Assembly: GCF_002240355.1 (NCBI RefSeq)
Contig: NZ_CP016353.1
Coordinates: 4,999,001-5,063,000 of the forward strand
Direction: 5' to 3'
DNA: 64,000 nucleotides
Source: Prauserella marina
GTDB taxonomy: Bacteria; Actinomycetota; Actinomycetes; Mycobacteriales; Pseudonocardiaceae
The notes beneath the pieces are model-generated. The model was not told where the DNA came from and searched no databases. It worked only from the letters and a program-made list of their open reading frames with translations. Made by a program: the position numbers and the translations under genes. Of the stretch, positions 4,587 through 57,461 are shown in pieces. The stretch's first letter is position 1. Each line of letters begins with the position of its first letter.

Positions 4587-4619
4587 TGGGTCCTTGCCCG
4601 CGAGTCGTCCTCGCCGACC

Positions 4620-5594: not shown

Positions 5595-5675
5595 CCGATC
5601 TCCTGCCGCCAAGCGAGTACTGTCGCCCCACCTGCCCGCACCCACAACTGCACCGATTTCAGATGGTGATAACCG

Positions 5676-6416: not shown

Positions 6417-6554
6417 GGGACACCTCCTGAGGTTCGTCGCGAGCGCTTCAAGCATGCTGCCAGGCCCATCTCATGACAAGTGGCCAGGTCCGCACCACGC
6501 GCCACCCAGCACGGTCGCCGAAGGAACCGACGGGAAGGGCACGCCGACGCTCCG

Positions 6555-31665: not shown

Positions 31666-32009
31666 GCGACCTGTGGCCTGCCGAACCAAGGAGAATCCTG
31701 AGCAGCGGCAAGATGTGATCAACTCGGACGTGGTGAGGCCCGCTCGGGACACGAAATACCTCGCGCGCCGTGTCGCGACGCCCCAGGCATGAGCTTCCCA
31801 TTTCCAGCGGAGAGCTCCACGTCCGTTGGCCGCACAGACCGAACAACTTGATAGCCGCTCAAACGCGGTTCAGCTCACGCCTGTCGCTTCGATAGCTGCC
31901 GAACGTAATCTCGCTCAACCTGAAAAAGACCCCTCCTGAGCTGAAGCCGATGCCTGCTAGGACGGATACCAGGCAGAGTGCTCGCACAACCGGGAGGGGA
32001 ACTCAAACG
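31666..32009. other. Intergenic region before the NeuC-like gene
   Basis: About 340 bases with no supported gene. It ends with GGGAGGGG, the ribosome site of the NeuC-like gene. No repeat, transposase fragment or hairpin could be identified with confidence. Confidence 0.4.
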
Positions 32010-33999: not shown

Positions 34000-34015
34000 C
34001 GACAAACTCCGTCTC

Positions 34016-36941: not shown

Positions 36942-36976
36942 GCGCTGACCTCCCGCTTGCCCTTTAACATGATGAT

Positions 36977-38602: not shown

Positions 38603-38653
38603 CTCGTGACCTTTCACAAGTAAGCGCCACCCCTCCAGCGTCGCCACGGGGAC

Positions 38654-41836: not shown

Positions 41837-42913
41837 TCACCCCCCGGAAAGCCGGGAAAGCATACTCGCCGATCCTTCATCGGTCTTGACGAAGTCCCGG
41901 GCTTCTGTCGGGTTGGCGGCCGCCGTCCTCACCATGTCCGCATAGCTGTACATCGGCCGATATCCGATCCACCTGCGCGCAGCGCAGATATCGATTTCGA
42001 GGCGCCACGTCAGGGGCAACCTGACAACGTGCCATGGCACATCGAACGCGTGCGCTACGACCGAAGCACCTGTCAACGAACCGACCGGTTCGGCGGCCGC
42101 GATGTTGAATGCCCGACCGAGCGCACCTCGCTGAGTCAGTGCCTTCCACACCGCCTCCGCCGCGTCGCGGACATCGACCACACTTAGTGTCCATTGGCCT
42201 TCCGGGCCTGTCAGCGCCACAGCCGCATCGGCTGGGGCATTGCCGACCGCATCATCGAACACGGCAGTAAGTTGCGGCTGGTCACGGAACAATGGCCACA
42301 GGGTACTCCGGCGCCCCTGGTTCTGTTGTGTCTTCAGCCAACCGCGCAAGAAACTCAACCTATATATCTCAGGTGATTCCTCGGGGCTGAGCACAGTGCC
42401 AAATCGTAAAACCGAATATGGTATATCGAACTGATGAGCACGATTTTGCAGAACTATTTCGCTCATCAACTTACTGGTACCGTAGTAGTCGGCCGGATTC
42501 TGCGCCAAATCTTCGGTCAAGGGTGTTTTCGGAGGGTCCGCGGGTCGGTACGTAGAATCGGTACTGGCCAACACGAATCTTTCGATCCGCCCGCCAGAAC
42601 CCAATACTCCCTCCAGCAGGCGGACCGTGCCCAGCACGTTGACGTCGTGGAAATCCTCCACAGACACATTGTCAAGCACCATCAAGGCGGCGAGGTGCAC
42701 GACGTGCGTCACACCATCACACGCCCGGTTAATTGCTACCTGATCACGCAGGTCGGCTTCCGCCACTTCTACACCCGTGAGACGTTCCAGTTTTGACAGC
42801 CTTCGAGTTCCCGGAGTGACCATGGCTCTCACTGCCACCCCCCGATCGGCCAACTTCTTGACCACATTCGCACCGACCCGGCCCGTGGCGCCAGTCACGA
42901 GAACTTTCACCAC
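41837..42913 (-). CDS. NAD-dependent epimerase/dehydratase family protein (copy B)
   Basis: A 358-residue extended SDR, paralogue of the gene at 30598. It shows LVTGATGRVGANVVKKLADR, THVVHLAALMVL, LASTDSTYRPADPP and the YxxxK in PADYYGTSKLMSEIVLQN. The C-terminal blocks VVDVRDAAEAVWKAL and AFNIAAAEPVGSLTGA also align with copy A. Two adjacent GTG codons follow GGAGGAG; the first is used here. It lies between an SDR gene and a Gfo/Idh gene, so it may act in the same sugar pathway. Confidence 0.88.
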   Translation of the reverse strand: MVKVLVTGATGRVGANVVKKLADRGVAVRAMVTPGTRRLSKLERLTGVEVAEADLRDQVAINRACDGVTHVVHLAALMVLDNVSVEDFHDVNVLGTVRLLEGVLGSGGRIERFVLASTDSTYRPADPPKTPLTEDLAQNPADYYGTSKLMSEIVLQNRAHQFDIPYSVLRFGTVLSPEESPEIYRLSFLRGWLKTQQNQGRRSTLWPLFRDQPQLTAVFDDAVGNAPADAAVALTGPEGQWTLSVVDVRDAAEAVWKALTQRGALGRAFNIAAAEPVGSLTGASVVAHAFDVPWHVVRLPLTWRLEIDICAARRWIGYRPMYSYADMVRTAAANPTEARDFVKTDEGSASMLSRLSGG

Positions 42914-42999: not shown

Positions 43000-43809
43000 C
43001 TACCAGATCGACCATCCTCCGTCGACGGTCCACTCCGCGCCCGTGACGAACGACGCCTCTTCACAGGCCAGAAAAGCAACCACCGCCGCGATGTCCTCCG
43101 GTCTGCCAAGCCTCCCGAGAGGCGTCGCCCCACAAAAACGATCGATCAATTCGGGAGCGACGGGACGTTCCGGCGTCTTGATCATTCCCGGTGCGACGGT
43201 GTTGACCCGGACGTTCCAGCGTCCGCCCACGACGGCGAGGTCTCTTGTCAGCGCGGCCAACCCGCCTTTGGAGGCGTGGTAGGCGGGCACTCGCACGGGT
43301 CCGGACGCTCCGTCCCGCGGATACACGTCCTCGGGGTAGAAACGACTGTCGAGACCCAGCGAGCCGTACACCGAGCCGATGTTGATCACCGAACCGCCGC
43401 CGAACTCCTTCATGCGCTCGATCCCCCACGCGGAGAGCACAGCGACGGCAACGAGGTTCGTCTCCAGTTCGGCCATCCACACGTCACTCGACTGGCCGAA
43501 CACGGGCATCGGAGTCGAGCGGGCCGCGCAGTTGACGACGAGACCGAGAGGTGTCCCGTGGTCCTCGGCCAGCCCGGTCAGCGTCGATCTGCCTTCCTCC
43601 GTCGAGATATCGCAGACGACGGAGCGGACAGCCCCCTCCGGAGCACCGATGACCGCCTCGGTCTTCTCCAGGTCCTCGGCTTCGAGGCCGGCGATGAGGC
43701 ATCGCCATCCACGCTCGACAAGCGTCCTGACGATCGCGTGTCCGATCCCTCGTCCGCCTCCCGTCACCACAGCCAATCGGGCGGTCGCACCAGGCCGAGT
43801 TTCATCCAT
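43000..43809 (-). CDS. Short-chain dehydrogenase/reductase (copy B)
   Basis: A 269-residue classical [57 protein letters not shown] (catalytic Ser), VPAYHASKGGLAALTRDLAV (Tyr-x3-Lys) and SFVTGAEWTVDGGWSIW. It is paralogous to the gene at 39853, sharing an insertion between the Ser and the Tyr. The ATG follows GAGGAGA and lies 20 bases behind the LegC-like gene, so it is probably the last gene of the sugar-nucleotide operon. The normal NNAG motif reads NCAA. Confidence 0.91.
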   Translation of the reverse strand: MDETRPGATARLAVVTGGGRGIGHAIVRTLVERGWRCLIAGLEAEDLEKTEAVIGAPEGAVRSVVCDISTEEGRSTLTGLAEDHGTPLGLVVNCAARSTPMPVFGQSSDVWMAELETNLVAVAVLSAWGIERMKEFGGGSVINIGSVYGSLGLDSRFYPEDVYPRDGASGPVRVPAYHASKGGLAALTRDLAVVGGRWNVRVNTVAPGMIKTPERPVAPELIDRFCGATPLGRLGRPEDIAAVVAFLACEEASFVTGAEWTVDGGWSIW

Positions 43810-43829: not shown

Positions 43830-44960
43830 TCAAACAGTCGTGAACAGACCTTCAACCGCCTTGATCACGGTCATCCGGTCGTCTTCGGAGAGTCCCGGCG
43901 AACTGGGAATGGAGATTCCCCTCGCGTAGATCCGTTCGGCTACTTCCCCTCCGAGCCGTTCAACGCCTCGGTAGGGGGCCTGCCGATGCAACGGCGGCCA
44001 TAACCGACGCGCCCGCACGCCCGCCGCTTCGAGTTCGGCCACCGCGTCCACGGGTTCGACGGACTCGGGCAGCAGCACGGAATAGAGCCAGTACGAGGGC
44101 TCGGCCCACGGCGCGTGCGGCGGCAGTGTCAACGGCAGCGCGGCAAACCGATCGGCGTAAGTCGCGGCCCCCGCTCGCTTTGCCGCGAGAATGGCGGGTA
44201 GCTGTTCAAGTTGAGCAACCCCGACCGCCGCATTGAGGTTGGTCATCCGGTAGTTGTAGCCGACGGTGTCGTGGAGGTAGCCGCCTTCCCCAGCCTTCGC
44301 CTGGTTGATGAGATGGCGTGCCTGTTCGGCTTTCTCCGCCTCTGGCGAGACGATCATCCCGCCGCCCCCGGTCGTGATTATCTTGTTGCCGTTGAAGGAA
44401 AAGCAGCCGAAGTCGCCGACCGTACCGACCTGTCCGCCACCGGAATCGCCATCGTTCCAGGCCGAACCGAGCGCTTCCGCCGCGTCCTCGACGACGCGGA
44501 TGCCGAACCGCTCTTTGAGCCTCAGCAGCGGCTCCAGGAACGCCGGATGCCCCAGCACATGCACGACCTCGACGATGTCGGGTATTCGCTCACCCACGCG
44601 CGCCCTGCGTACCACCTCGTCGTGGAGTCGTTCGGTGTCCATGTTCCAGCTCGCGGACTCACTGTCCACAAACAATAGGTCCGCACCGGTGTAGGTGGCG
44701 GCGTTGGCCGAGGCTATGAAGGTGAAGTCCGATACCGCGACCAACGTGCCGGGACGTGCTCCGGACAGCCTCAGCGCCACGTGCAGAGCCGCTGTTCCGG
44801 TCCCACAGGCCACCGCGTGAGGAGAACCCAATGCATGCCCGAATTCGCGTTCGAATCTGCCGACGAAGGGACCGACCGCCGAGACATATCCCGTTTCAAT
44901 GCATTCCAGCAGATACCGCGCCTCGTTTCCGGGAAACCGGGGATCGACGAGCGGGATCAC
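43830..44960 (-). CDS. LegC-like DegT/DnrJ/EryC1 sugar aminotransferase
   Basis: A 376-residue PLP aminotransferase that would aminate C4 of a 4-keto-6-deoxy sugar nucleotide. Family blocks are YVSAVGPFVGRFEREFGHAL, ACGTGTAALHVALRLSG, VVEDAAEALGSAW, and FSFNGNKIITTGGGGMIVS with the PLP lysine. The GNKIITTGGGG block is typical of the LegC/PglE branch. The GTG at 44960 overlaps the LegB-like stop as GTGA, with GAGG eight bases upstream. Substrate by context is the 4-keto product of the LegB-like dehydratase (inference). Confidence 0.92.
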   Translation of the reverse strand: MIPLVDPRFPGNEARYLLECIETGYVSAVGPFVGRFEREFGHALGSPHAVACGTGTAALHVALRLSGARPGTLVAVSDFTFIASANAATYTGADLLFVDSESASWNMDTERLHDEVVRRARVGERIPDIVEVVHVLGHPAFLEPLLRLKERFGIRVVEDAAEALGSAWNDGDSGGGQVGTVGDFGCFSFNGNKIITTGGGGMIVSPEAEKAEQARHLINQAKAGEGGYLHDTVGYNYRMTNLNAAVGVAQLEQLPAILAAKRAGAATYADRFAALPLTLPPHAPWAEPSYWLYSVLLPESVEPVDAVAELEAAGVRARRLWPPLHRQAPYRGVERLGGEVAERIYARGISIPSSPGLSEDDRMTVIKAVEGLFTTV

Positions 44961-45952
44961 CGGTGATACCTCGTGACCCGTCGACCGTCGACTCTCGGCG
45001 CCAGCCACTTGACCGTCTCGGCCAGGCCGTCCGAAAGGGACCGTGTCGGATGCCAGCCGAGCCGTTCCGCGGCCAGCGCCGGTTCGGAAAGCAGCGTAAG
45101 GACTTCGCTTGCCTCCGGGCGCACGCGTTGCCGGTCCACGATCGCCGTCGCCTCGCTCTTGGTCACGTCGCGGCACAGGTCGAAGAGCTCCCCGATCGAA
45201 TGGGCTTGTCCCGTCCCCAGCTGGACGAGGCTGCCTGCGGGGAGGGGAGCACAGGCCATCCTGACGAAGCCATCCACCGTGTCCGAGACAAAGGTGAAGT
45301 CCCTTTGCGGAGAAAGGCTTCCCAGCTCGACCTCGTCCACTCCGGACAGTAATTGTCCCAGGATCGTGGGAATGACGGCACGAGCAGACTGTCGAGGGCC
45401 GTAGGTGTTGAACGGACGAAGTGTCACGACCTGGGTTTCGAATGAACGGGCGTACGCTTCGCAGAACTGATCGGCTGCGATTTTCGAGGCCGCGTACGGC
45501 GATTGCCCGCAGAGCGGATGTGTTTCCCTGATCGGTACGCTCTCGGGCGTACCGTACACCTCGCTCGTCGAGGTGTGGATCATCCGTATCTCGTCCGCGT
45601 CCCGCACCGCCTCCAGCACGTTGAGCGTTCCGACCACATTGGTGTCCACGAAAGACTCTGGTGCCTGATAGCTGTACGGGATCGCAATCAGCGCGGCGAG
45701 ATGGAACACGATGTCCATCCCCGAAACGATGTCCCTGACCGTGCGCCCGTCCCGGATGTCTCCGAGCCGCAGGTCGAGGCTGTCCAACCGGTCCGGATCG
45801 AGATCCTCCAGCCAACCGTGATTGCCATTGGAGTTGTAGAGGCAGAAGGCACGTACCTCAGCCCCTTCGTCCAGCAAGCGTTCGACGAGATGGCTGCCGA
45901 TGAAACCGTCGGCACCCGTCACCAATACCCGCTTACCCGCGAGTTTCTCCAC
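44957..45952 (-). CDS. LegB-like NAD-dependent sugar-nucleotide 4,6-dehydratase
   Basis: A 331-residue extended SDR. The Rossmann motif is VLVTGADGFIGSHLVERLLD. Then come HTSTSEVYGTPESVPIRETH, the catalytic SPYAASKIAADQFCEAYA and RDFTFVSDTVDGFVRMA. These match the LegB branch, which removes water from an N-acetylglucosamine nucleotide to give the 4-keto-6-deoxy sugar. The GTG at 45952 follows GGAGGAG with five bases between. It lies between the NeuD-like and LegC-like genes, in the order expected for diacetamido-trideoxyhexose synthesis. Confidence 0.92.
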   Translation of the reverse strand: MEKLAGKRVLVTGADGFIGSHLVERLLDEGAEVRAFCLYNSNGNHGWLEDLDPDRLDSLDLRLGDIRDGRTVRDIVSGMDIVFHLAALIAIPYSYQAPESFVDTNVVGTLNVLEAVRDADEIRMIHTSTSEVYGTPESVPIRETHPLCGQSPYAASKIAADQFCEAYARSFETQVVTLRPFNTYGPRQSARAVIPTILGQLLSGVDEVELGSLSPQRDFTFVSDTVDGFVRMACAPLPAGSLVQLGTGQAHSIGELFDLCRDVTKSEATAIVDRQRVRPEASEVLTLLSEPALAAERLGWHPTRSLSDGLAETVKWLAPRVDGRRVTRYHR

Positions 45953-45965
45953 ATCGACTCCTCCG

Positions 45966-46616
45966 CTACCGAGGGTTCTCACCCGTGGCCGATCCCAGTT
46001 CTCTCGCCGGTACGCCGACGACACACGTGTCCGGAGGAACGTCACGGGTGACGACGGCTCCCGCGCCGACGACCGCCCTGTCCCCTACCCTGACGTCACC
46101 CATGACGATCGATCCCATGCCGAACATGACTTCTCTTCCGATGCGCGACCGAGCGCCGATCATGACGTTTCCCGCGATGGCCGTGTGATCGCCGACGACA
46201 CAGTCGTGCCCGACGATCGCGTTGATATTGACGACCACATGACTTCCGACGACGGCTCCGTACTGGATGTGCGAGCACTCCGCTACCAGCGAGCCCGGTC
46301 CGACGACCGCACGCCGGTCCACCCACGCCGCGGAGTGGATCAAGCGAGCGGGTTCCAATCCCGCCGCATCCGCCGTCGCCGCAAGCTTGCCCCGGAGTTC
46401 CGGTGCGCCGACACCGATCAGGTACGCGGCGTCGATTCCGGCGAGGACCTCATCGCCCCCGAGTACCGTGACCCCCTCGACCTCGGGGGCATCGTCGTTC
46501 GCGACGAACCCCAGAAGTTCGTAGCTTCCCGGCGCGTTCTCCGCGTCCTCAATGAGCCCGATGATCTGCCTGGCGAACTCTCCCGCGCCGAGCACCACCA
46601 GGCGCTGCACATTCAT
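45966..46616 (-). CDS. NeuD/PglD-type hexapeptide acyltransferase
   Basis: A 216-residue sugar O/N-acyltransferase. The N-terminal Rossmann-like half reads RLVVLGAGEFARQIIGLIED. The left-handed beta-helix contains NINAIVGHDCVVGDHTAIAG, whose His is the catalytic base, and ends VPPDTCVVGVPARELGS. It would acylate the 4-amino group made by the LegC-like enzyme, using acetyl-CoA or, given the ketosynthase and hydroxyacyl dehydrogenase nearby, perhaps a longer acyl group (inference). The ATG at 46616 follows AAAGG. Confidence 0.91.
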   Translation of the reverse strand: MNVQRLVVLGAGEFARQIIGLIEDAENAPGSYELLGFVANDDAPEVEGVTVLGGDEVLAGIDAAYLIGVGAPELRGKLAATADAAGLEPARLIHSAAWVDRRAVVGPGSLVAECSHIQYGAVVGSHVVVNINAIVGHDCVVGDHTAIAGNVMIGARSRIGREVMFGMGSIVMGDVRVGDRAVVGAGAVVTRDVPPDTCVVGVPARELGSATGENPR

Positions 46617-46654
46617 TCGGCCGCCTTTCGTCGTTGCTGATCCGGATTCCATCG

Positions 46655-49066
46655 CTACCTCGTACGCATTCGCCAGTTGCTCCGCGACCTCGGCATGATG
46701 TCGTCGCCCTCGTTGTCGTGCGCGAGGTGGACCGAGAACAGATTCACCGTCGCGGGCTCGGTCAGCGCATGGGAGAGCACGTCCGCGTCGACGGTCCTGA
46801 TCGCCTCGTGCCGGATCGTCGTGCCTCCCCACACCTGTTGCCATGGGGGTTCGACGAACGAGAGAAGCGACATCTGGGCGTCGGCCGTCGCCGCGTGCTG
46901 TAGTTCGCGGTAAGACCGGATGATGGAGAAGGCGCCGTTGAGCAGGAAGAAGATGCTCACGTTCGCGGTGATCCGGCCGGATTCGAACCGCAGTTGCTGC
47001 GCGAGGCTCGGCAGGAACGAGGGGACCAACCTCGCCGCCCCGTCTCCGATGAACCCGAGAATGTTCTCCGGTCCGCTCAACGCCACCGTGGGGATCGCGA
47101 GCAGCGCGTCGCCCATCAAGGCTCTTCCGTACCAGCCCGAGAACCCTGGTCCTGTGCGCGGCAGGTTGCGAACCGCGGAGATACCGCCTCGGCCCACGTC
47201 GTAGAACCCGGTGTAGGAATAACCTTGCCGCTCCACCAGGTCTCCGATGACGGAACGCAGCCTCGTGAAGAAGTGCTCGTGACTCATCGGTATCGAGGGA
47301 ACCCTCGCCAACGGGTCGCCCTCGGCTCTTCGCGCCCGTTCCGCCGCTGCCGCACGATGCCGGAGGACATGTGGATCGGGGTTGATTCGCTCCGAGAGGC
47401 GCCGCAGGAACGACGACAGTCGTTCGGTGACGGCGACATCGGTGAACGGCGAGACATGACCGGGAGTGTCGGTGAGCTGGACCACCCTGACCTCGTCGTG
47501 CAAAGCTTTGTCACTGAACGGGGTCGAGAGATCGGGGACCTTGCTCTTGAGGAAGAAGAGGGCGTGCTCGTCATAGGGCAGCAGGCGCCCGTCCGGATGC
47601 AGCAGCCGCCACACCGAGGTCGAGCAGCCGTACACGCTCATGGTTCCGAGGAACTCGTCGACGATGCCGCCGCGGTGGTATCTGGCCACGGTTCCCGGTC
47701 TTGCCAGCGAATCGACCAGCGCGATGCCGGTTCGTGCCGCGAGGTCGTAGACGAGTTCCCTTTCCTCCTCGTCGAGTTTTCCGCATTGGCAGACGATGAC
47801 GCTCTGCTGGTTGTTGAGGATGTCGGCGACGGTGTCGACAGTGTCCTCGTCGACGGTGGGAGTCGAGACCTCCCGCCCTGCCGGCAGGTGGACCTCACCG
47901 CCGGTATGCCGCAACACTGAAGGCGAGGCGAGCAGCACGACAGGCCCTCGTCGCTCGTGATACGCGGCGAACGCCGAAGCAAGGTCCTCGTCGATGCGGT
48001 CGGGATCGGTCAGGTGAAAACACGGAACACCGTAGGCGTCGAGGACGGCCTTGCCGTTCTCGTGATCGTGAACGGTGCCCTGGAAAGGCTGCCAGGTGCC
48101 GGGTTCGGTCTCCCCGAACACGATGAAACCACGTGACTGGGAATCACGCAGGTTCGCCAACGTGCCCCTGAGTTCATCCACCATCCCGGCGGTGACGACG
48201 ATCAGATACGGAGCGTCGTACAGTTGCCAACGCGCGAGGGCACCGCAGGCGAGGCTGTGCTCGCTGGGTCCGCGAAGCACCGGGTTTCCGCTCGCTCTCG
48301 CGATGGAAGCGGCATCCTGGATGAGCTTCGAGACGATGGAGCCGGTGAAGAAATGGAGCGCCCACGCGGTGCCTGCTTGCGCCGTGAGAAATCCGGTCAG
48401 CGCGGCCGCCATGGTGGCGGGCGGATCGCTTTCGGTCACCATCGCCTTCGGGTTGACATGCCGCGCCTGCACCAGGTCGGTGAACGAGCAGATTGTCTCC
48501 GCCGCGAGTACCCATTGCTCCGCCGGTGTCTCCCTGGCATTGCCGACGGTGCGCGCGTAGACGCGATCAACGCCTAGCTTGTCGTAAACGACAACGGAGT
48601 ACGGCGAAACACTGACTCCGAGCCGGTCCCGAATTCCGCGCACGACCTCCTGAACCCGGTCGAGCCGTTCCTCCGGGTCCGCACCCCGCACGGTCCTCGT
48701 CGCCTCGACGAGGAACAACACGGTGGGCCCCGAGGTCCATGGCCTCCGGCCTTCTTCCCGTGCCTCCTCGGGCGGCGGGACGACCCGGGCCAGTCGTGCC
48801 TCGAGTTCTTCGAGGCGGGGCGCCTCGATCACCTCGATACCGGTCTCAGGGGAAAGGTTGTCGTCGAGGAAGGCACTCGCGGATTCGGTGAGTTCGTGGC
48901 ACACATCCGGCCACGAATCGCCGGGCGGTGAGGGTGTGACCGCCGCACCGCCGACCCGCACCTGTCTGCCCAGTGCGGCGAGCGCGCTCTCGACGGTGTC
49001 GAGGAAGAACGAACTGTCGCTGACGGCCGCGACCAGAACGGGCCGGTCGCGTCGGGGAGCTTGCAT
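46655..49066 (-). CDS. Large unusual thiamine-diphosphate-dependent enzyme
   Basis: About 803 residues. The first 190 or so are not recognised (VAAVSDSSFFLDTVESALAA...). A ThDP pyrimidine-binding-like domain follows, with GPSEHSLACGALARWQLYDA, whose Glu would activate the cofactor. A middle domain comes next (CQCGKLDEEERELVYDLAAR). The C-terminal ThDP-diphosphate domain has NILGFIGDGAARLVPSFLPS and FFLLNGAFSIIRSYREL, a GDG...N motif with NG in place of NN. It resembles acetolactate synthase and 2-oxoacid decarboxylases only in outline, and I see no clear FAD site. By context it could add a two-carbon or acyl unit to a sugar intermediate. ATG at 49066 (behind GAGG) or 49078. Confidence 0.75.
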   Translation of the reverse strand: MQAPRRDRPVLVAAVSDSSFFLDTVESALAALGRQVRVGGAAVTPSPPGDSWPDVCHELTESASAFLDDNLSPETGIEVIEAPRLEELEARLARVVPPPEEAREEGRRPWTSGPTVLFLVEATRTVRGADPEERLDRVQEVVRGIRDRLGVSVSPYSVVVYDKLGVDRVYARTVGNARETPAEQWVLAAETICSFTDLVQARHVNPKAMVTESDPPATMAAALTGFLTAQAGTAWALHFFTGSIVSKLIQDAASIARASGNPVLRGPSEHSLACGALARWQLYDAPYLIVVTAGMVDELRGTLANLRDSQSRGFIVFGETEPGTWQPFQGTVHDHENGKAVLDAYGVPCFHLTDPDRIDEDLASAFAAYHERRGPVVLLASPSVLRHTGGEVHLPAGREVSTPTVDEDTVDTVADILNNQQSVIVCQCGKLDEEERELVYDLAARTGIALVDSLARPGTVARYHRGGIVDEFLGTMSVYGCSTSVWRLLHPDGRLLPYDEHALFFLKSKVPDLSTPFSDKALHDEVRVVQLTDTPGHVSPFTDVAVTERLSSFLRRLSERINPDPHVLRHRAAAAERARRAEGDPLARVPSIPMSHEHFFTRLRSVIGDLVERQGYSYTGFYDVGRGGISAVRNLPRTGPGFSGWYGRALMGDALLAIPTVALSGPENILGFIGDGAARLVPSFLPSLAQQLRFESGRITANVSIFFLLNGAFSIIRSYRELQHAATADAQMSLLSFVEPPWQQVWGGTTIRHEAIRTVDADVLSHALTEPATVNLFSVHLAHDNEGDDIMPRSRSNWRMRTR

Positions 49067-49094
49067 CGATGTCCTCATCTCTCGAAGCGATCGG

Positions 49095-49961
49095 TCAACG
49101 CGCGTACTCGTGGAATCCGCGCCCGGTCTTCTTGCCGAGCAAGCCCGCGTCGACCATGCGCAACAGCAACGGCGGCGGGGAATAGTGCGGTTCTCTGAAC
49201 TCGGCGTGCAGCGACTCGGCGACGGCGTTGATCACGTCAAGTCCGATCATGTCGACCAGCCGCAGTGGCCCCATCGGATGGGCACAGCCCAGCCGCATCC
49301 CGCTGTCGATGTCCTCAGCCGACGCGAATCCGGACTCCAGCATCCTGATCGCGGACAACAGATACGGGATGAGCAGCGCGTTGACCATGAAGCCCGCCCT
49401 GTCCGGTGAACGCACCACCTGCTTGCCCAGCTTCTCGGTCACGAACGACGCGATCCTCGTGACCGTGTCCTCCTCGGTGAGCAGAGAGGGAACGATCTCG
49501 ACCAGCGGCAGTACCGGGGCCGGGTTGAAGAAATGGGTTCCGACGACGTGGCCTGCCCGTTCCGTCGCCCTGCCGAGCTTCATGATCGGTGTCGCGGAGG
49601 TGTTCGTCGCGAGGATCGCCCTTTGGTCGTCGACCACTTTGTCCAGTGCTCTGAAGACCTGTACCTTGACGGCCTCGTCCTCCAGCACCGACTCGATGAC
49701 GATCTGCCGGTCGGCAAGTGCGTCGAGATCCGCGGTGAACGACAAGCGCTCCAGCGCGCCGTCGCGGTCCTGCTCGGTCAGCTTTCCCTTGCGCAGCGCG
49801 TGATCGAGTGATCTCACGATTCGTGCCCGGCCGCGTTCGGCCGACGCGGGGGAGGTCACGCACACCACGACATCCAGTCCGGCGAGCGCGCAGATCTCGG
49901 CGATGCCTGCGCCCATCGTTCCGCAGCCGACAAGCCCAACCCTTTCCGGTGCCGCGCTCAC
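49095..49961 (-). CDS. 3-hydroxyacyl-CoA dehydrogenase (FadB2/Hbd-like)
   Basis: A 288-residue NAD(P)-dependent enzyme interconverting 3-oxoacyl and 3-hydroxyacyl thioesters. The cofactor loop is VGLVGCGTMGAGIAEICALA, the catalytic His-Glu block is VVGTHFFNPAPVLPLVEIVP, and the C-terminal domain has GCAHPMGPLRLVDMIGLDVI. It is of single-domain length, like 3-hydroxybutyryl-CoA dehydrogenase. The GTG at 49961 overlaps the ketosynthase stop as GTGA. Directly after a KAS III gene in a sugar operon, it may reduce an acetoacetyl-type product to a 3-hydroxyacyl donor (inference). Confidence 0.92.
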   Translation of the reverse strand: MSAAPERVGLVGCGTMGAGIAEICALAGLDVVVCVTSPASAERGRARIVRSLDHALRKGKLTEQDRDGALERLSFTADLDALADRQIVIESVLEDEAVKVQVFRALDKVVDDQRAILATNTSATPIMKLGRATERAGHVVGTHFFNPAPVLPLVEIVPSLLTEEDTVTRIASFVTEKLGKQVVRSPDRAGFMVNALLIPYLLSAIRMLESGFASAEDIDSGMRLGCAHPMGPLRLVDMIGLDVINAVAESLHAEFREPHYSPPPLLLRMVDAGLLGKKTGRGFHEYAR

Positions 49962-50971
49962 GCCGACCACCGCAGCAGGCACGAGCCGATCGACATGCCA
50001 CCGCCGAACGCTGCGAGCAGTACCAGTTCACCGTCGGCGAGTTCGCCCGCGCGGTTCGCCTCGTCGAGAGTCACCGGTATGCAGGCACTACCGACGTTGC
50101 CGTAGCGTTCGAGCGATCGATGCGTTGTCGCGTTGGGCATCGCCAGCCTCTCCACGAGCTCGGCGAGCAGATTTCCGTTGGGCTGATGCGGGACGATGTG
50201 GTCGATCTGCTCACCCGTGGCCCCCGCCTGGTGCAGCAGATCCGCCACCGCGAGTGGCACCTGGTCGAGTACGAATTCGGAGACCCGCCTTCCGCGCATC
50301 GTGAAGTAGTGGGCCCCCGCGTCCACGGTCTCGTGCGACGTCGGCAGCCTGCTGCCCCCCGCGGCGACCTTGATCAGTTCGTTGGCGTCACCGCGCATGC
50401 GCAGGCGAGCGTCGACGATTCCGTACGACATCGGTGCGGGGCCGAGCACGACGGCACCCGCGCCGTCACCGAGCAGGACCGAGGTCGCCCTGTCGTCGTA
50501 GTTGAGGATGCGCGAGTAGACGTCGGCTCCGATGACGAGCGCATACGTTCCCGGATTCATGAGCAGCAGCGCTCTGGTCAGTTCGAGTCCGTACACGAAT
50601 CCGCTGCACACGACGTTGATGTCGAAGCAGGCCGCGTCGTAGGCGCCGAGCTCGTGTTGCACCAGCGCGGAGGTTGGCGGCTGCGGCGAGTCCGGAGTGG
50701 ACGTCGCGACGACCAGGTAGCTCAATCGATCCGCTCCGATTCCGGCCTGGTCGAGAGCCGATTCGGCGGCCAGAGTCGCGAGATCCGACGTCGCCTCAGT
50801 CGGAGCCGCGTAGCGCCTGGCCCGGATCCGGGTCTTGCGCTCGATCCATTCCGCCGTCACTCCCGCTCTCTCGGCGACCCAATCGTTGGACACCTCGTCC
50901 TTCGGCAGGTACGAACCGGTTCCGAGAACCCCGACGGACTGCCTGGTGTTCCTGTTCTCCTGTGTACTCAC
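49958..50971 (-). CDS. 3-oxoacyl-ACP synthase III (KAS III) family protein
   Basis: A 337-residue FabH-type condensing enzyme with the full triad: Cys in FDINVVCSGFVYGLELTRAL, His in HIVPHQPNGNLL and Asn in RYGNVGSACIPVTL. It begins SVGVLGTGSYLPKDEVSNDW. Such enzymes join an acyl-CoA to malonyl-ACP, and some relatives in secondary metabolism act instead as acyltransferases, including onto sugars. The GTG at 50971 overlaps the nucleotidyltransferase stop, and GAGAGGAC lies upstream. Its presence inside a sugar-nucleotide operon, with no other fatty-acid gene except the hydroxyacyl dehydrogenase, is unusual. Confidence 0.92.
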   Translation of the reverse strand: MSTQENRNTRQSVGVLGTGSYLPKDEVSNDWVAERAGVTAEWIERKTRIRARRYAAPTEATSDLATLAAESALDQAGIGADRLSYLVVATSTPDSPQPPTSALVQHELGAYDAACFDINVVCSGFVYGLELTRALLLMNPGTYALVIGADVYSRILNYDDRATSVLLGDGAGAVVLGPAPMSYGIVDARLRMRGDANELIKVAAGGSRLPTSHETVDAGAHYFTMRGRRVSEFVLDQVPLAVADLLHQAGATGEQIDHIVPHQPNGNLLAELVERLAMPNATTHRSLERYGNVGSACIPVTLDEANRAGELADGELVLLAAFGGGMSIGSCLLRWSA

Positions 50972-52014
50972 ACCTGTCCTCTCGCTTGAGCCAATTCGTT
51001 GGGCCTGCCGATGTCCTGCCAGTGCTCGCGGAGTTTCCACAGCCCGACGGGCAGCCCCTCGGAAAGGCAGTCGTCGAACAGCGCTGTTATCGGGAACAGC
51101 TCGCCCGCGGGGATACGTGCGAGCAGACGTGGCTCCATGACGTAGATCCCCGCGTTGACCGGCCAGGACGAGGTCGGTTTTTCGACCATCCTGACCAGAT
51201 TTCCCGACTCGGATTCCAGTACTCCGAACGGAACCTGGTGCCGGTATTCGGTCATGGCGATGGTCGCGACGACCTCCCGGCTCGCGTGGGCATCCATCAG
51301 TTCGCCGACCGCGAACTCGGTGACCAGATCTCCGTTCATGACGAGCAACGGTTCGGTCGGTTCGTAGCCGAGTTCGCCGATCAGCCGCAGCGGACCGCCG
51401 GTTCCGAGCGGCAGCTCCGGATCCTCTCTGAGGTATTCGATCTCGCAGCCGAATCGTGCTCCGTCGTCGAAATGCTCTTCGATGATCTTGCTCAGATAGT
51501 TCACGGAAAGGAAGATCTTCTCGATTCCGGAGCCAACGAGATGGAGAACCAACCGTTCCAGAATTGGCCTGCCCGCGACCGGGAGCATCGGTTTCGGAAT
51601 GTGATCGGTCAGCGCACCGAGCCGCGTTCCCCTGCCGCCGGCCATGATCACGGCCCAGTTCTTCAGCCGGTTGATCCCCGACAGTTCCCGCTCGGCGTGA
51701 ACTCCGACAATCCTGCCATGTTCGTCGACAACCGGAATCTCGGACAGTTTGAGCGCGCGCATCAGATCCAGCACCTCGGCCCGCCCCTCCGTGGACTTGA
51801 CGGAGACGACCGGGGAATGCATCAGCGGGTAAGCCGGCGCACCGAGCGGGGTGCCTCGAAGCAGCGCGCGCGTGATGTCGACCTGGCTGACCGATCCGAG
51901 CAACCTGCCGCCGGCGTCGGCGACGAAGACACGTTCGACGCATTGCCCGTCAATTGTGGAAAGCGCTGATCTGACGGACGCTTCCCGACCGATCAGCAGG
52001 TCAGCGAAATGCAT
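50968..52014 (-). CDS. PtmE-like nucleotidyltransferase with paired CBS domains
   Basis: A 348-residue protein. Two CBS repeats (about residues 1-115; RVFVADAGGRLLGSVSQVDI, IPVVDEHGRIVGVHAERELS) precede a sugar-phosphate nucleotidyltransferase domain with IMAGGRGTRLGALTDHIPKP, MLPVAGRPILERLV and LLVMNGDLVTEF. This architecture is that of Campylobacter PtmE, which activates glucosamine-1-phosphate with GTP for legionaminic acid synthesis. It is the first gene of the operon, with AAAGGAGA before the ATG. It is divergent from the fused XRE regulator. Nucleotide and sugar specificity are inferred. Confidence 0.9.
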   Translation of the reverse strand: MHFADLLIGREASVRSALSTIDGQCVERVFVADAGGRLLGSVSQVDITRALLRGTPLGAPAYPLMHSPVVSVKSTEGRAEVLDLMRALKLSEIPVVDEHGRIVGVHAERELSGINRLKNWAVIMAGGRGTRLGALTDHIPKPMLPVAGRPILERLVLHLVGSGIEKIFLSVNYLSKIIEEHFDDGARFGCEIEYLREDPELPLGTGGPLRLIGELGYEPTEPLLVMNGDLVTEFAVGELMDAHASREVVATIAMTEYRHQVPFGVLESESGNLVRMVEKPTSSWPVNAGIYVMEPRLLARIPAGELFPITALFDDCLSEGLPVGLWKLREHWQDIGRPNELAQARGQV

Positions 52015-52259
52015 TGTTTCTCCTTTTGGCCGGCACCCGGGCCGTCGGCACGCTCGACGACAAGCCTTCGCCAGCGGCGGCGACAGCGGCCAGGGGTCGA
52101 GTTCAAGCCCATTGGCGGATTGACGAGATCGACCCGATCCAGAGCGGATTCGGTGCCCTGGTTCGCGAAATCGACAGCAACAGGGCGCGAAACGGACTGA
52201 CCGCGGTGTGCCGGACCGCTAGCGTCAAAGGTACGAAGCCCACGAAGGAGCGAGCGGTC

Positions 52260-53645
52260 ATGGAAGGCGTATCCGACGAACCGATCTCACAACTCATCCG
52301 ATCCGCGCGAAGGCGACGGCAACTCAGCCAGTACACCCTCGCGAGAGAACTCTCGACGGTGTCGGGCAAACCGACCGTCACCCGTGACCTTGTGGCGAGG
52401 TGGGAACGTGGACACCAGATCCCCCGTTACGGTTCACGGCAATGGCTTTCGGTCGTGCTCGGCCTTTCCCAGGAACGGCTCGACGCCGCCGCGGCGGCCT
52501 CACGGCGCAGGACGCGGCTCGGTCACGCGGTCGTCACCAACAACGCCCCCGTCAAGCCGGGGCCTGCCCGGCGCGCACAGGGCACTCCCGCTTTGCTTCC
52601 CGTTTTCCGCTCACGGGTGCAGGCGGGCATCCTGGCGGCGGCGCTGCTGAATCCGCACCGGTCGTTCAGCCTTTCCGAACTCGCCGAGCACGCGGGTGGC
52701 TCGCTTGCCTCCGTCGACAAGGAAAGCAGGTTGCTTGAGGTAGCGGGCATCCTCACCAGCAGGACGGAGGGAACGATCCGGCTCATGCGGGCAGCCGATA
52801 CGGGCCCGATGGTGCGGCCACTGACCGAACTCATCAAGACGAGCTACGGAGTACCGCAGATCATCGGCGAGGAGTTCGGCAGGTTGGCAGGGGTGGCGAG
52901 GATTCTGCTCGGCGGTGTGTGGGCCGAGCGGTTCGCGGGCATTCCCGGCCCCGCGCCGGACAGCATCGAGGTCCTGATCATCACCGCGCGGGCGGAGGAT
53001 GTCGACCAAGGCACTGTCGGTGCCGCCGCTCGGCGGGCACAAGGCAGACTCCGGTGTCCCGTGCACGTGTCGGTACGCCCGCTCGACCCCAGGCTCGACT
53101 ACCTCCAGATCCCCCACCAGCGAGCCAACCAGCCGGTGGTCGAGGTGGCACCGGTGCGACCGAAGCACCCCGGCGCGACGGGAGCACCGTGGCCGGACGG
53201 TCGCCAGGCGGTGACGAAGCTCGTGAGCGCTGGGCAGCTTGAGATGGTCGGCGGCCCGGCCACCGACCACCGGCCGTTCCTTCGGCTCGCCGAACTGCAC
53301 ATCGGGGCCGCGGAACAGCTCATCGACACCTCACCGCCTTCGGCGTTCCTGCTGCTGTCGGAATCGGCACAGCTCATCGCCTCGGCGCTGCTTGTGCACC
53401 AGGGGCTGCGCCCGGCGACGGGGGCGGCGGAACACGTACCCGGGGACGTGGTCACCGCTCAGTTCGGACACCAGTTCTCGCAGGTCGAGTTGCTCAGGCA
53501 ACGGTCGAAGGAGTTGCGCAATCCCATCAGCAGGGACAGCCACGTGACCAACGAAGAGGTGAAGACCTACCTGGCGACGACGAGGTCCTTACTCTCCGTC
53601 TCGCACAATGTCATCGGCTCGGTCGGCACGTTCAGCGTGCAGTGA
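52260..53645 (+). CDS. XRE regulator fused to winged-helix and degenerate MNT/HEPN-like domains
   Basis: A 461-residue protein. An XRE helix-turn-helix (residues 1-75) contains QLIRSARRRRQLSQYTLARE and RDLVARWERGHQIPR. A winged helix follows (about 110-185; SFSLSELAEHAGGSLASVDK). Next is a segment shaped like an MNT nucleotidyltransferase, WAERFAGIPGPAPDSIEVLI, where the usual Asp-x-Asp is lost (SIEV). A C-terminal all-helical part resembles a HEPN domain (AEQLIDTSPPSAFLLLSESA, ELRNPISRDSHVTNEE). MNT/HEPN assignment is by pattern, not by search. The ATG lies nine bases behind GGAG. It is divergent from the sugar-nucleotide operon and may regulate it. Confidence 0.75.
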   Translation: MEGVSDEPISQLIRSARRRRQLSQYTLARELSTVSGKPTVTRDLVARWERGHQIPRYGSRQWLSVVLGLSQERLDAAAAASRRRTRLGHAVVTNNAPVKPGPARRAQGTPALLPVFRSRVQAGILAAALLNPHRSFSLSELAEHAGGSLASVDKESRLLEVAGILTSRTEGTIRLMRAADTGPMVRPLTELIKTSYGVPQIIGEEFGRLAGVARILLGGVWAERFAGIPGPAPDSIEVLIITARAEDVDQGTVGAAARRAQGRLRCPVHVSVRPLDPRLDYLQIPHQRANQPVVEVAPVRPKHPGATGAPWPDGRQAVTKLVSAGQLEMVGGPATDHRPFLRLAELHIGAAEQLIDTSPPSAFLLLSESAQLIASALLVHQGLRPATGAAEHVPGDVVTAQFGHQFSQVELLRQRSKELRNPISRDSHVTNEEVKTYLATTRSLLSVSHNVIGSVGTFSVQ

Positions 53646-54368: not shown

Positions 54369-54602
54369 CTAGGGGTCGATTCTGACGATGGGCTGGCCGA
54401 CGGTGAGTTCGTCGCCTTCCTCGACCAGCAGCTCAGTGACGGTCCCGGCGATCTGACTGACGATCTCCTGGGTCACCTTGTCCGTTTCCGCCTCGGCGAC
54501 GGGCTCATCAACGGCCACCTGGTCCCCGACCTGCTTGTACCACTTCAGCAGGACGACCTCCTCTGTCGTCAGGCCCCATTTGGGCACCACGATCTCGCTC
54601 AT
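54369..54602 (-). CDS. Free-standing lipoyl-domain protein
   Basis: A 77-residue protein that is a single lipoyl/biotinyl domain: VPKWGLTTEEVVLLKWYKQV, then VAEAETDKVTQEIVSQIAG, with the lipoyl lysine in ETDKV. The subunit-binding and acyltransferase domains of a normal E2 are absent. The ATG overlaps the end of E1-beta as ATGA, so it is translated with E1. It probably swings the acyl group made by E1 to an acceptor supplied elsewhere, or serves a reaction that needs no E2 transferase (inference). The gene is complete, with a clear stop, not a fragment. Confidence 0.9.
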   Translation of the reverse strand: MSEIVVPKWGLTTEEVVLLKWYKQVGDQVAVDEPVAEAETDKVTQEIVSQIAGTVTELLVEEGDELTVGQPIVRIDP

Positions 54603-55585
54603 CCGGTTGCCTCCTCGGTCACGAGCCGCACGGCGGCGACCACGTCGTCGATCTGCGGGAAGTACGCGGTGCCCAAGTGGGGCGGGAAGGGCACCGGCGC
54701 GAAGACGGGACTCACGAGTCTCGGCGCCGCTCGCAACGCACCGAACCCCTCGCAGGCGGCCAGCCTGACGACCTCGGAGCCGACGCTGCACGGGCCGGTG
54801 GCGTCCTGGACGACGACGAGCCGCCCGGTACGGCCGACGGACGAGAGGATGCTCTTCTTGTCGAGCGGTGACAGGGTACGCAGGTCCAGCACCTCGGCAT
54901 CGACACCCTCGTCGGCCAACGCGACGGCGGCGGCATCGGCCCTCGGCACCGTTCCACCCCAGCACACCAGGGTCACGTCCTCGCCGCGGCGACGCACGGC
55001 CGCCCGGCCGAGCGGTGTCACCACGTCGTCGTCGCCGACCTCGCCCCTGACCGACCACTGCCCCGCGCTCTCGACCACGACGACCGGATCGGGATCCCTG
55101 ATAGCCGCCTTGAGCAGTCCCTTGGCTTCGGAGGGCGTTCCGCCCCACACGACTTTGAGGCCGGGAACTCCGGCGACCCACGCCTCCAGGTTCTGCGAAT
55201 GCTGCGGCCCAGAACCGAGATGGGCACCGCACATCGTGCGAAACGTCAACGGAACCGAGCAGTGGCCCATCGACATGTACGACATCTTCGCGGCCTGGTT
55301 CACCAACTGGTCCATGGCCAGCGTGATGAAATCGAAGAACATGACCTCCACGATCGGCCGCAGCCCGGTCATCGCGGCACCGACCGCCATCCCGGTGAGT
55401 GTCGCCTCGCTGATCGGGGTGTCCCTGACCCTCGTCGGACCGAACTCGTCGAGTAGTCCCTTGCTCGCCCCGAACGGCCCGCCGGGCGCCGCGACATCCT
55501 CGCCGAACAACACGACGCTCGGGTCGCGCCGCAGCTCTTCCGACAGTCCCGAGTTGATCGCCTGCCAGTACTTGAGCCTGCTCAT
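54599..55585 (-). CDS. 2-oxoacid dehydrogenase E1 component, beta subunit (second locus)
   Basis: A 328-residue E1-beta subunit: VVLFGEDVAAPGGPFGASKG, RVRDTPISEATLTGMAVGAA, FFDFITLAMDQLVNQAAKMS and CGAHLGSGPQHSQNLEAWVA. It differs clearly from the copy at 3528. The ATG at 55585 shares its A with the stop of E1-alpha (TGATG). The C-terminal transketolase domain (LVVVQDATGPCSVGSEVVRL) is intact. It sits in an operon with acyl-CoA enzymes, so the 2-oxo acid probably arises from or feeds an acyl-CoA pathway. Confidence 0.92.
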   Translation of the reverse strand: MSRLKYWQAINSGLSEELRRDPSVVLFGEDVAAPGGPFGASKGLLDEFGPTRVRDTPISEATLTGMAVGAAMTGLRPIVEVMFFDFITLAMDQLVNQAAKMSYMSMGHCSVPLTFRTMCGAHLGSGPQHSQNLEAWVAGVPGLKVVWGGTPSEAKGLLKAAIRDPDPVVVVESAGQWSVRGEVGDDDVVTPLGRAAVRRRGEDVTLVCWGGTVPRADAAAVALADEGVDAEVLDLRTLSPLDKKSILSSVGRTGRLVVVQDATGPCSVGSEVVRLAACEGFGALRAAPRLVSPVFAPVPFPPHLGTAYFPQIDDVVAAVRLVTEEATG

Positions 55586-56553
55586 CACGCCCCCGTCCGA
55601 TCGCGGTACACGTGCGCCGTCAACGCTTCGGCCCGCGCCGGGAGCTGGTCGCGGGCCCATTCGACGGCAAGGGCGATCTTGTCGGCGCATTCCTCGTCGA
55701 TAACCTTGAGCGAATCGGTTGGCAGCCCCGACTCCTCGGCGCGGGCGGCCAGCACCGTCAGCGGATCGCGCTCGCGCCACGCCTCGACCTCCGATTTGTC
55801 CCGGTACCGCTGCGCGTCTCCTTCGAAATGACCGTGCCAGCGGTAGGTGCGGCATTCGAGCAGCGCGGGCCCCCCGCCCTCGCGGGCCCGCGCGACCGCC
55901 TTCTCCGCCGCGGCTCTCACCGCGAGCACGTCGTTGCCGTCGAGTGTCTCGGCCGGAATCCGGTGGGGAGCGGCATAGTCGGCGACATTCGTGGCACGCA
56001 GGTGCACACCGACGGGGGTCATCTCGGCGTAGCCGTTGTTCTCGCAGACGAAGATCATGGGAAGCTGCCACAGCGCGGCCAAGTTGAGCGATTCGTGCAC
56101 GACACCTTCCGCGACGGCCCCTTCACCGAAGAACGCGACCGACACCTTCCGCCCGCCGAGCATCGAGGCCGACAGAGCGCCGCCGAGCGCGATCGGAACA
56201 CAGGCGCCGACGATGGCGTTCGCGCCGAGGATGCCGACGTCAGGATCGGCGACGTGCATCGAACCGGATCTGCCGCCGCAGTAGCCCTCTGCACTTCCGA
56301 AGATCTCCGCGAACATCGCCTCGACCCTCGCGCCCTTGGCGACGCAGTGCCCGTGTCCCCTGTGCGTCGTCGTGATGTGGTCTTGCCGCCCGAGTACGTC
56401 GCACACTCCCGCGGCGACCGCCTCCTGCCCGATCGACAGGTGCAGGAATCCGGCGAGCTCACCGTCGGCGAGCAATCGTCCGGCCGCGGTCTCGAACCGC
56501 CGGATCAACGACATGGTGCGGTAGAGCCGCTCCACGAGTTCGAGGTCAGCCAT
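55585..56553 (-). CDS. 2-oxoacid dehydrogenase E1 component, alpha subunit (second locus)
   Basis: A 322-residue E1-alpha subunit: FLHLSIGQEAVAAGVCDVLG, TTHRGHGHCVAKGARVEAMF, GRSGSMHVADPDVGILGANA and EGVVHESLNLAALWQLPMIF followed by VCENN. The cofactor motif reads GEGA where most relatives have GDGA; the Glu could still bind the metal. It overlaps the hot-dog protein gene by eight bases and E1-beta by one. The high similarity to acetoin-dehydrogenase type E1 is by motif only. Confidence 0.92.
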   Translation of the reverse strand: MADLELVERLYRTMSLIRRFETAAGRLLADGELAGFLHLSIGQEAVAAGVCDVLGRQDHITTTHRGHGHCVAKGARVEAMFAEIFGSAEGYCGGRSGSMHVADPDVGILGANAIVGACVPIALGGALSASMLGGRKVSVAFFGEGAVAEGVVHESLNLAALWQLPMIFVCENNGYAEMTPVGVHLRATNVADYAAPHRIPAETLDGNDVLAVRAAAEKAVARAREGGGPALLECRTYRWHGHFEGDAQRYRDKSEVEAWRERDPLTVLAARAEESGLPTDSLKVIDEECADKIALAVEWARDQLPARAEALTAHVYRDRTGA

Positions 56554-56974
56554 CGCTTCGCGCTCCCCGTGACACCGACGATCCGGACGGCACCGCGACC
56601 ACCGCGTGGCCGGGGGTGCACAGATCCCCGTCCTGGTTGTGTTCCTCCAGGTCGACCGTCACGAGCTGGAACGCGCCATCCGGCTCGGAGCCGGTCACCG
56701 TGCCGGTCACCGTCAGCACGTCGCCCGCGACGGCGATCCCTCTGTTGGTCCACCGCAACGTACGCAGCGTGGCGCCATCCCCTGCCCAGGCGAGCACGGC
56801 GTTGGCGAGAAAACAGCCGTGCAGATGCGACTGGACGAGTACCTCCGGATACCCCTCCGACCGCGCGTATGCGGTGTCGTAGTGGATCCGGTGGGCATTC
56901 CAGGTCACCGCGCTGAACCGGAAGAGCTGAACATGGTTCGTCCGCACGGTGTAGGGCGTGATCCGACCGGTCAT
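56546..56974 (-). CDS. MaoC-like hot-dog protein, C-terminal-type subunit
   Basis: A 142-residue single hot-dog domain. The block LFRFSAVTWNAHRIHYDTAY carries the hydratase-2-like Asn-x-His...Asp/Tyr pattern of enoyl-CoA or mesaconyl-CoA/HTD2-type hydratases. QSHLHGCFLANAVLAWAG follows. It lies seven bases after a gene for a second hot-dog subunit, and the pair probably forms one heteromeric acyl-CoA hydratase or dehydratase, as in HadAB-like systems. It overlaps the E1-alpha start by eight bases. Confidence 0.85.
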   Translation of the reverse strand: MTGRITPYTVRTNHVQLFRFSAVTWNAHRIHYDTAYARSEGYPEVLVQSHLHGCFLANAVLAWAGDGATLRTLRWTNRGIAVAGDVLTVTGTVTGSEPDGAFQLVTVDLEEHNQDGDLCTPGHAVVAVPSGSSVSRGARSDG

Positions 56975-56981
56975 CGTGTCA

Positions 56982-57461
56982 TCACCTCGCGATGAAGGAC
57001 TCGTGGCAGGTCACCAGGGCCCTGCCCGCATCGGTCGTGAAGCGCCGGAGGATCCGCAACAGAAGCAGAGGACCCGTTCGTCCTTCCTTCATCCGCACAT
57101 CGGTGAGGCTCGTGTGGACGACCACCGCCGTGCCCGCCGGGACGGGCGCATGGAACTCCAGTTCCTGCCCCGCACCCATCAGGCGCACCCCTTCGAGCGG
57201 AAGCCCCCTCGTGTCCTCTGCCGCGGTTCCGTCGCCGTCGAGTTCGTCGTCGGGCACACCGGCCCCCCAGCCCATGACGGAGCTGAGGAACGTGGGAGGC
57301 GCGAGCACCGCGCCCGTCACGTCTCGCCGCTCCGGCTGTCCCGTCACCACCGCGAACCTGGCGATGTCCCTCCCGTCCAGGACGCCGAGCCGTTCGGCTC
57401 GCTCCCTGCCGAGTTCGGCACGCAGCGCCTCGGCATGCTTTTCCAAGTCCGCGACCGTCAC
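56982..57461 (-). CDS. MaoC-like hot-dog protein, N-terminal-type (FAS1_DH-like) subunit
   Basis: A 159-residue protein like the N-terminal half of two-domain hydratases: DIARFAVVTGQPERRDVTGA, VLAPPTFLSSVMGWG, GAGQELEFHAPVPAGTAVVV and DVRMKEGRTGPLLLLRIL. It lacks the catalytic His/Asp of its partner and likely binds the acyl chain. The GTG at 57461 overlaps the CoA ligase stop as GTGA. The short gap to the catalytic subunit gene supports one complex. Confidence 0.82.
   Translation of the reverse strand: MTVADLEKHAEALRAELGRERAERLGVLDGRDIARFAVVTGQPERRDVTGAVLAPPTFLSSVMGWGAGVPDDELDGDGTAAEDTRGLPLEGVRLMGAGQELEFHAPVPAGTAVVVHTSLTDVRMKEGRTGPLLLLRILRRFTTDAGRALVTCHESFIAR

Follow-up and report, generated by a model that had tools for sequence, protein, structure and literature searches.

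A seven-gene block of amino-sugar and carbon-chain enzymes in Prauserella marina, the middle of a larger cluster shared with Jiangella

A stretch of 64,000 nucleotides from the genome of Prauserella marina (RefSeq assembly GCF_002240355.1, contig NZ_CP016353.1, positions 4,999,001 to 5,063,000), hereafter the window, carries a block of seven minus-strand genes (43830-52014) in which enzymes of the GDP-legionaminic acid type of sugar route adjoin enzymes of carbon-chain formation. The seven genes are the middle of a cluster of roughly 47 kb that is shared with Jiangella and whose product is probably a small molecule built from a modified amino sugar and a short carbon chain. We judge the odds as even that this block forms the heart of a biosynthetic cluster of the natural-product type, with two enzyme modules contributing to a single small molecule. 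Gene content, family membership, synteny and the absence of NeuB and NeuA from the cluster are direct observations; the reactions given to the enzymes below are predicted from knowledge of their families.

The functional neighbourhood is far larger than the seven genes. About 37 genes between 13.2 and 60.2 kb of the window have counterparts, in rearranged blocks and at ~35-80% identity, in one locus of J. aurantiaca and of J. ureilytica (tblastn), and two more Jiangella genomes carry the cluster, J. gansuensis among them. The block itself runs on into a short-chain dehydrogenase/reductase (SDR) gene (43000-43809, minus strand; adh_short), 20 nt downstream of its last member.

The seven genes and their Jiangella counterparts

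All seven open reading frames (ORFs) were present in an ORF check of the window, in the order given by the first-pass annotation of this DNA. With corrected starts the successive gaps are -4, -4, 28, 38, 13 and -4 nt, the three -4 junctions being GTGA overlaps, which bears out its description of the genes as joined by such overlaps or short gaps. Gene starts outside the seven came from a simple codon-usage caller, and orthology was judged by the best local match together with position.

The block opens with ptmE (50968-52014), encoding a PtmE/LegX-like CBS-domain sugar-1-phosphate nucleotidyltransferase (Pfam CBS and NTP_transferase), for which the best NCBIfam match is a mannose-1-phosphate guanylyltransferase model, far below cut-off. 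A beta-ketoacyl synthase III (KAS III, 49958-50971; PRK09352, 307 bits, cut-off 249) and a dehydrogenase of the 3-hydroxybutyryl-CoA type (HBD, 49095-49961; PRK07819, 460 bits, cut-off 319) follow. The Cys-His-Asn motifs of the KAS III are kept, their residues are invariant across orthologues, and its relatives in the PDB are FabH enzymes. The fourth gene (46655-49066) encodes a thiamine diphosphate (ThDP) enzyme of the PigD, or Stetter-type, family (NF053552, 662 bits, cut-off 950). The last three are neuD (45966-46616), for a NeuD/PglD-type amino-sugar N-acyltransferase (NeuD_NnaD, TIGR03570, 168 bits, cut-off 161); legB (44957-45952), for a LegB-type nucleotide-hexosamine 4,6-dehydratase (408 bits, cut-off 475); and legC (43830-44960), for a LegC-type aminotransferase dependent on pyridoxal phosphate (DegT_DnrJ_EryC1; 364 bits, cut-off 420). 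The best NCBIfam matches of the legB and legC products are TIGR04180 and TIGR04181, respectively, both somewhat below cut-off. The GHD motif of NeuD is invariant in orthologues, and its closest PDB relatives are the 4-amino-sugar N-acyltransferases PglB, VioB, QdtC, PglD and a perosamine N-acetyltransferase.

The corresponding run in J. ureilytica and J. aurantiaca reads KAS III, HBD, ThDP enzyme, acyl-CoA-dehydrogenase homologue (ACAD), MaoC subunit A, MaoC subunit B, NeuD, LegB, LegC, SDR, epimerase and, as the last gene, NeuC; one extra ORF and a gap of ~1.4 kb separate HBD from the ThDP gene in J. ureilytica. It is on account of this run that the ACAD, MaoC, epimerase and NeuC genes are counted into the system despite lying outside 43830-52014. 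A further Jiangella genome (G559) keeps everything from KAS III to NeuC except the SDR gene, whose orthologue (62-67% identity) directly follows LegC in three of the genomes and is absent in two. In J. gansuensis, which lacks it, and in J. asiatica the run starts at HBD, and a glycosyltransferase-like ORF, so called from sequence, stands just before HBD in each. The first-pass annotation had proposed a search of related genomes for the same neighbourhood: the adjacency of KAS III, HBD and ThDP genes to the sugar genes held in five Jiangella genomes, except that KAS III is ~17 kb off in J. gansuensis and was not seen in J. asiatica, where the contig is truncated. LegB is 71-74% and LegC 64-65% identical in the five genomes, and HBD 59-61% in these and in a genome of the window's family but another genus (G844). 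The PtmE orthologue (59-60% in four Jiangella genomes) adjoins a divergent XRE-type gene in all four complete Jiangella loci. A gene for an NAD-dependent epimerase/dehydratase family protein (41837-42913, minus strand; PF01370) has a relative between LegC and NeuC in all five.

The sugar route and the carbon-chain module

The NeuC/LegG-like gene reported some 11 kb from the block was recovered as a NeuC/LegG-type hydrolysing 2-epimerase (31950-33170, plus strand; TIGR03568, NeuC_NnaA, 424 bits, cut-off 236), with the GDP/UDP-diacetylbacillosamine 2-epimerase (hydrolysing) 5ZLR as its closest PDB entry (305 bits). NeuB and NeuA were not found within the window. Elsewhere in the genome, where the first-pass annotation had asked for them to be sought, they are present only inside a separate set: the sole NeuB (C1:194683-195402) is PseI (451 bits, over cut-off), and the sole NeuA-type gene lies at C1:197972-198337. 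With PseB (482 bits, over cut-off), a PseC-like aminotransferase (402 bits, cut-off 423.5) and weaker PseH- and PseG-like genes as neighbours, they form a pseudaminic acid locus (L008, G000 C1:185000-204900) about 2 Mb from the window, taken as circular distance if the contig is circular. Genome searches of the five Jiangella genomes that carry the cluster found no NeuA, and no NeuB beyond weak matches of 24-26 bits, of which the one read out (L012) is a 3-deoxy-D-arabino-heptulosonate 7-phosphate (DAHP) synthase, the others being taken as the same by score and profile range. In Jiangella, therefore, the sugar route does not lead to a nonulosonic acid, and most likely it does not do so in the window either, in agreement with the earlier view of a GDP-legionaminic-type front half that does not go on to NeuB and NeuA. 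The route most likely ends at a free diamino sugar.

The PigD model aligns with residues 153-802 of the ThDP protein. Judged by this match the protein is a PigD family relative and not an equivalog, rather than the novel kind of ThDP enzyme first supposed. No Pfam family matches the protein, and phmmer found no match for it in the PDB. Across eight sequences, E269 (the putative catalytic Glu, in the NEHS region), G674-D675-G676 and N710 are invariant. In a tree, the window and five Jiangella sequences form a clade separate from Saccharopolyspora-type proteins and from PigD of prodigiosin clusters, with long branches that leave the deeper order unsure. An AlphaFold model of the enzyme (four sequences) had a mean pLDDT of 44.9 and was not used for a fold search. 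Saccharopolyspora-type proteins aside, the sample of the window's own order (399 genomes) yielded full-length relatives in a single genome besides the window's own, the class sample in five genomes, all Jiangella, and the phylum sample (397 genomes) in no genome but the window's own; a scan by pattern across 84,980 species genomes, able to detect close relatives only, returned three Jiangella species. The PigD reaction of prodigiosin biosynthesis transfers the acetyl unit of pyruvate onto 2-enoyl thioesters (PMC8341465), and few natural Stetter-type enzymes are known (PMC11533139).

More genes of the cluster lie upstream of the block on the same strand. The ACAD gene (59041-60186; 77-80% identity in five Jiangella, 81-82% in G844) sits directly after the ThDP gene in five Jiangella genomes. 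Its product has His in place of the usual catalytic Glu (IGHGT versus IYEGT in relatives), which cautions against taking it for a plain dehydrogenase. The MaoC pair consists of a FAS1-like/MaoC-type dehydratase subunit A (56982-57461; PF13452, 50 bits; 56-62% in five Jiangella) and a MaoC-type subunit B (56546-56974; weak PF13452/PF01575 matches; 64-70% in five Jiangella and G844). An acyl-CoA ligase (57458-59017; AMP-binding) is 70% identical in G844 and 36-38% in Jiangella, and genes for pyruvate dehydrogenase-type E1-alpha, E1-beta and a free lipoyl-domain protein (54369-56553) recur in the same order in G844 at 70-73%.

The neighbourhood in G844, examined over 80 kb, bears on how the two modules relate. 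A genome search gave a strong match to the ThDP alignment, and the genes stand as in the window, from ACAD through ligase, MaoC subunits A and B, E1-alpha and E1-beta to the lipoyl protein; beyond a single AroB-like gene come the ThDP gene and another ACAD, and KAS III and HBD are close by. Within the 80 kb there was no match to PtmE, LegB, NeuD or NeuC, and only a LegC relative of 32% identity. The chain module is thus separable and does not need the sugar. The first-pass annotation had set the carbon-chain enzymes in place of NeuB and NeuA; by the gene content of G844 they are an independent module and not a replacement. Between the lipoyl and ThDP genes, G844 encodes an AroB-related cyclase (L064, C1:2705166-2706347; 204 bits against a dehydroquinate synthase model, cut-off 333), and a DegT aminotransferase is found ~17 kb beyond it; these are perhaps another amino-ring partner that replaces the sugar module.

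The constant partners of the chain module, in the window, the four complete Jiangella loci and G844, are two tryptophan genes. In the window they encode a B12/radical-SAM tryptophan 2-C-methyltransferase of the TsrM type (14134-15843, minus strand; TIGR04428, 937 bits, cut-off 500; 62-64% in four Jiangella and G844) and a tryptophanase-family lyase (18232-19602, minus strand; PRK13238, 537 bits, cut-off 285; 70-76% in Jiangella and G844), the closest PDB entries of which are tryptophanases. Their counterparts in G844 (64% and 70%) lie ~20 kb beyond the chain genes. By their families, the two enzymes could together make 2-methylindole.

A proposed pathway and its alternatives

In the pathway that we propose, PtmE would make a nucleotide-activated hexosamine, probably with GDP, LegB would convert it to the 4-keto-6-deoxy sugar, and LegC would add the 4-amine, which NeuD would acylate. 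NeuC would then remove the nucleotide with epimerisation at C2, so that the sugar module would yield a free 2,4-diamino-2,4,6-trideoxy-mannose-type sugar and not legionaminic acid. On the chain side, KAS III, HBD and the MaoC pair may build a short 2-enoyl thioester. The PigD-family enzyme is predicted to add the acetyl unit of pyruvate to it in a Stetter 1,4-addition; if the enoyl unit were crotonyl, the product would be a 3-methyl-4-oxopentanoyl thioester, which the ACAD might then modify. Finally, NeuD may pass the Stetter-derived acyl group to the 4-amine of the sugar. Crotonyl is the simplest guess for the enoyl unit; this choice and NeuD as acceptor of the Stetter product are the weakest points of the scheme, and we lean somewhat against this role of NeuD. 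Gene order suggests that NeuD hands the acyl group on from its thioester to the sugar; G844 weakens this step. An N-acylated sugar built with the chain genes, as the first-pass annotation had imagined, is possible. The fullest version, in which NeuD moves a Stetter-derived gamma-keto acyl group to the 4-amine of the nucleotide diamino sugar and NeuC frees the acylated sugar for incorporation into a new class of small molecule that also bears a 2-methylindole-type unit, seems to us unlikely, at about one chance in a handful.

A single pathway is supported by the Jiangella run, in which the chain genes lie directly upstream of NeuD, LegB and LegC in five genomes and the run ends in NeuC. Several observations weigh on the other side. 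The LegB, LegC and PigD models were all matched under their curated cut-offs; the chain module occurs in G844 without PtmE, LegB, LegC, NeuD or NeuC in the 80 kb; NeuC of the window lies 10.7 kb from legC on the opposite strand; and the ACAD lacks the usual catalytic Glu. HBD enzymes give (S)-3-hydroxyacyl thioesters and MaoC enzymes usually handle the (R)-forms, so a linear order of the chain reactions is not certain. The importer, IclR, M81 and RidA genes, moreover, look catabolic. Literature searches on 2-methylindole with tryptophanase, on trehangelin, on viosamine and anthrose and on the enzyme combination found no matching cluster, and for the jiangrines of J. gansuensis we found no evidence tying them to it.

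Of the alternatives, one gives the chain module to the tryptophan-derived part: the TsrM-type enzyme and tryptophanase homologue would supply a 2-methylindole-type unit, the Stetter-derived acyl group would be joined to that core, and NeuD would only acetylate the sugar as a separate decoration. The co-occurrence of both tryptophan genes with the chain module in the window, four complete Jiangella loci and G844, where the sugar genes are missing from the 80 kb, speaks for this reading; yet in Jiangella the chain genes directly precede NeuD, LegB and LegC in one run while the tryptophan genes stand apart on the other strand, and no joining enzyme was identified. We regard it as doubtful, although worth keeping in view. 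Another has the locus serve mainly for uptake and breakdown: a compound taken in by the importer would be degraded by enzymes of the peptidase, RidA, ligase, HBD and MaoC types. Genes for the Dpp/Opp importer, an IclR regulator, an M81 peptidase, RidA, the acyl-CoA ligase and E1 are indeed present and mostly conserved, but PtmE, LegB, LegC, NeuD, KAS III and the TsrM-type methyltransferase are biosynthetic types, and the M81, RidA, AstE, PALP and aldo-keto reductase genes are missing from some loci, which makes this explanation improbable.

Two further possibilities we rate as very slight. The window's genes could supply a legionaminic-type acid if PseI and its CMP-transferase, both encoded in the pseudaminic acid locus at C1:185-205 kb with PseI over cut-off, served in place of NeuB and NeuA; that locus, however, has its own PseB, PseC-like and weaker PseH- and PseG-like genes, and neither NeuB nor NeuA was found in the Jiangella genomes that share the cluster. 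The destination favoured by the first-pass annotation, a surface glycan carrying a 3-hydroxybutyryl or chain-extended amino sugar, is about equally hard to sustain. Formation of a 3-hydroxyacyl donor would agree with the position of KAS III and HBD next to amino-sugar genes, and 3-hydroxybutyramido sugars such as modified viosamine are known, although literature searches did not confirm this. A surface glycan is nonetheless unlikely because no glycosyltransferase was recognised among the family matches in the window's cluster (no dedicated search was made) and because NeuC is of the hydrolysing type and would strip the nucleotide; with a MaoC pair and a PigD-family enzyme at work, moreover, the chain would not stop at 3-hydroxybutyryl.

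Part of the interest of the locus is that the ThDP enzyme is encoded beside its likely substrate-makers, KAS III, HBD and the MaoC pair, and beside an enzyme that may accept its acyl product, so that a new substrate class is directly testable. The truncated legionaminic route would put the same sugar enzymes to a use other than nonulosonic acid, and the cluster, which the window's lineage has in common with Jiangella, gives the search for a new natural product a concrete target.

The wider cluster and comparison with known systems

Among the remaining cluster genes are those of a Dpp/Opp-type ABC (ATP-binding cassette) importer with two ATPases, two permeases and a binding protein (33190-38647, minus strand; binding-protein families; 39-64% orthologues in Jiangella loci) and of a second epimerase/dehydratase family protein (30598-31665, plus strand; PF01370), which has a 60-64% orthologue in four Jiangella loci. 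A 220-residue protein (13229-13891) has counterparts of 54-62% in Jiangella clusters, a second copy in G559 and a weak PHROG match (E 0.023). Between 27.2 and 43.0 kb the G+C content falls to 0.57, with third-position G+C (GC3) mostly 0.5-0.67 against flanks of ~0.65 and 0.75-0.88; this piece was possibly acquired separately, although its genes have Jiangella counterparts. Read from the sequence only are the XRE-type regulator divergent from ptmE (52026-53645, plus strand; no NCBIfam match), a second E1-beta/E1-alpha type pair beside an IclR-like gene outside the shared cluster (3528-6455), and CitE-, MaoC- and CoA-transferase-like ORFs that separate the ABC ATPase genes from KAS III in J. aurantiaca (L025, G152 C91:110000-129999, at ~11.7-14.4 kb), whose J. 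ureilytica counterparts are shorter and apparently broken.

The ThDP protein resembles PigD of prodigiosin biosynthesis in matching its model over 650 residues and in keeping the putative catalytic Glu and the GDG...N residues. It differs in being 33-36% identical to the PigD-like proteins of prodigiosin-type clusters and in forming its own clade; unlike the plasmid relatives, it has no prodiginine neighbours (PigE-type, acyl carrier protein, polyketide synthase) in the window's gene list and is accompanied instead by the KAS III, HBD and MaoC set. The nearest other clade found is the Saccharopolyspora-type PigD relative (G012, G053, probably SeAAS; 40-42% identity). It is encoded next to an aminotransferase, an acyl carrier protein and a ketosynthase, and neither sugar genes nor a TsrM gene are among its neighbours. 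The tryptophan methyltransferase, for its part, scores well above the cut-off of the model for TsrM of thiostrepton biosynthesis, but it is paired with a tryptophanase homologue and the chain module, and no thiopeptide genes were recognised.

For the sugar genes, the closest comparison is the Campylobacter GDP-legionaminic acid pathway, in which the roles of PtmE, LegB, LegC, LegH and LegG are known (PMC13317340). The window has PtmE-, LegB-, LegC- and LegG/NeuC-type genes together with an N-acyltransferase. In contrast to Campylobacter, LegI (NeuB) and LegF (NeuA) are absent from the cluster and from the Jiangella genomes, the acyltransferase is of the NeuD/PglD type, and a carbon-chain module is built in.

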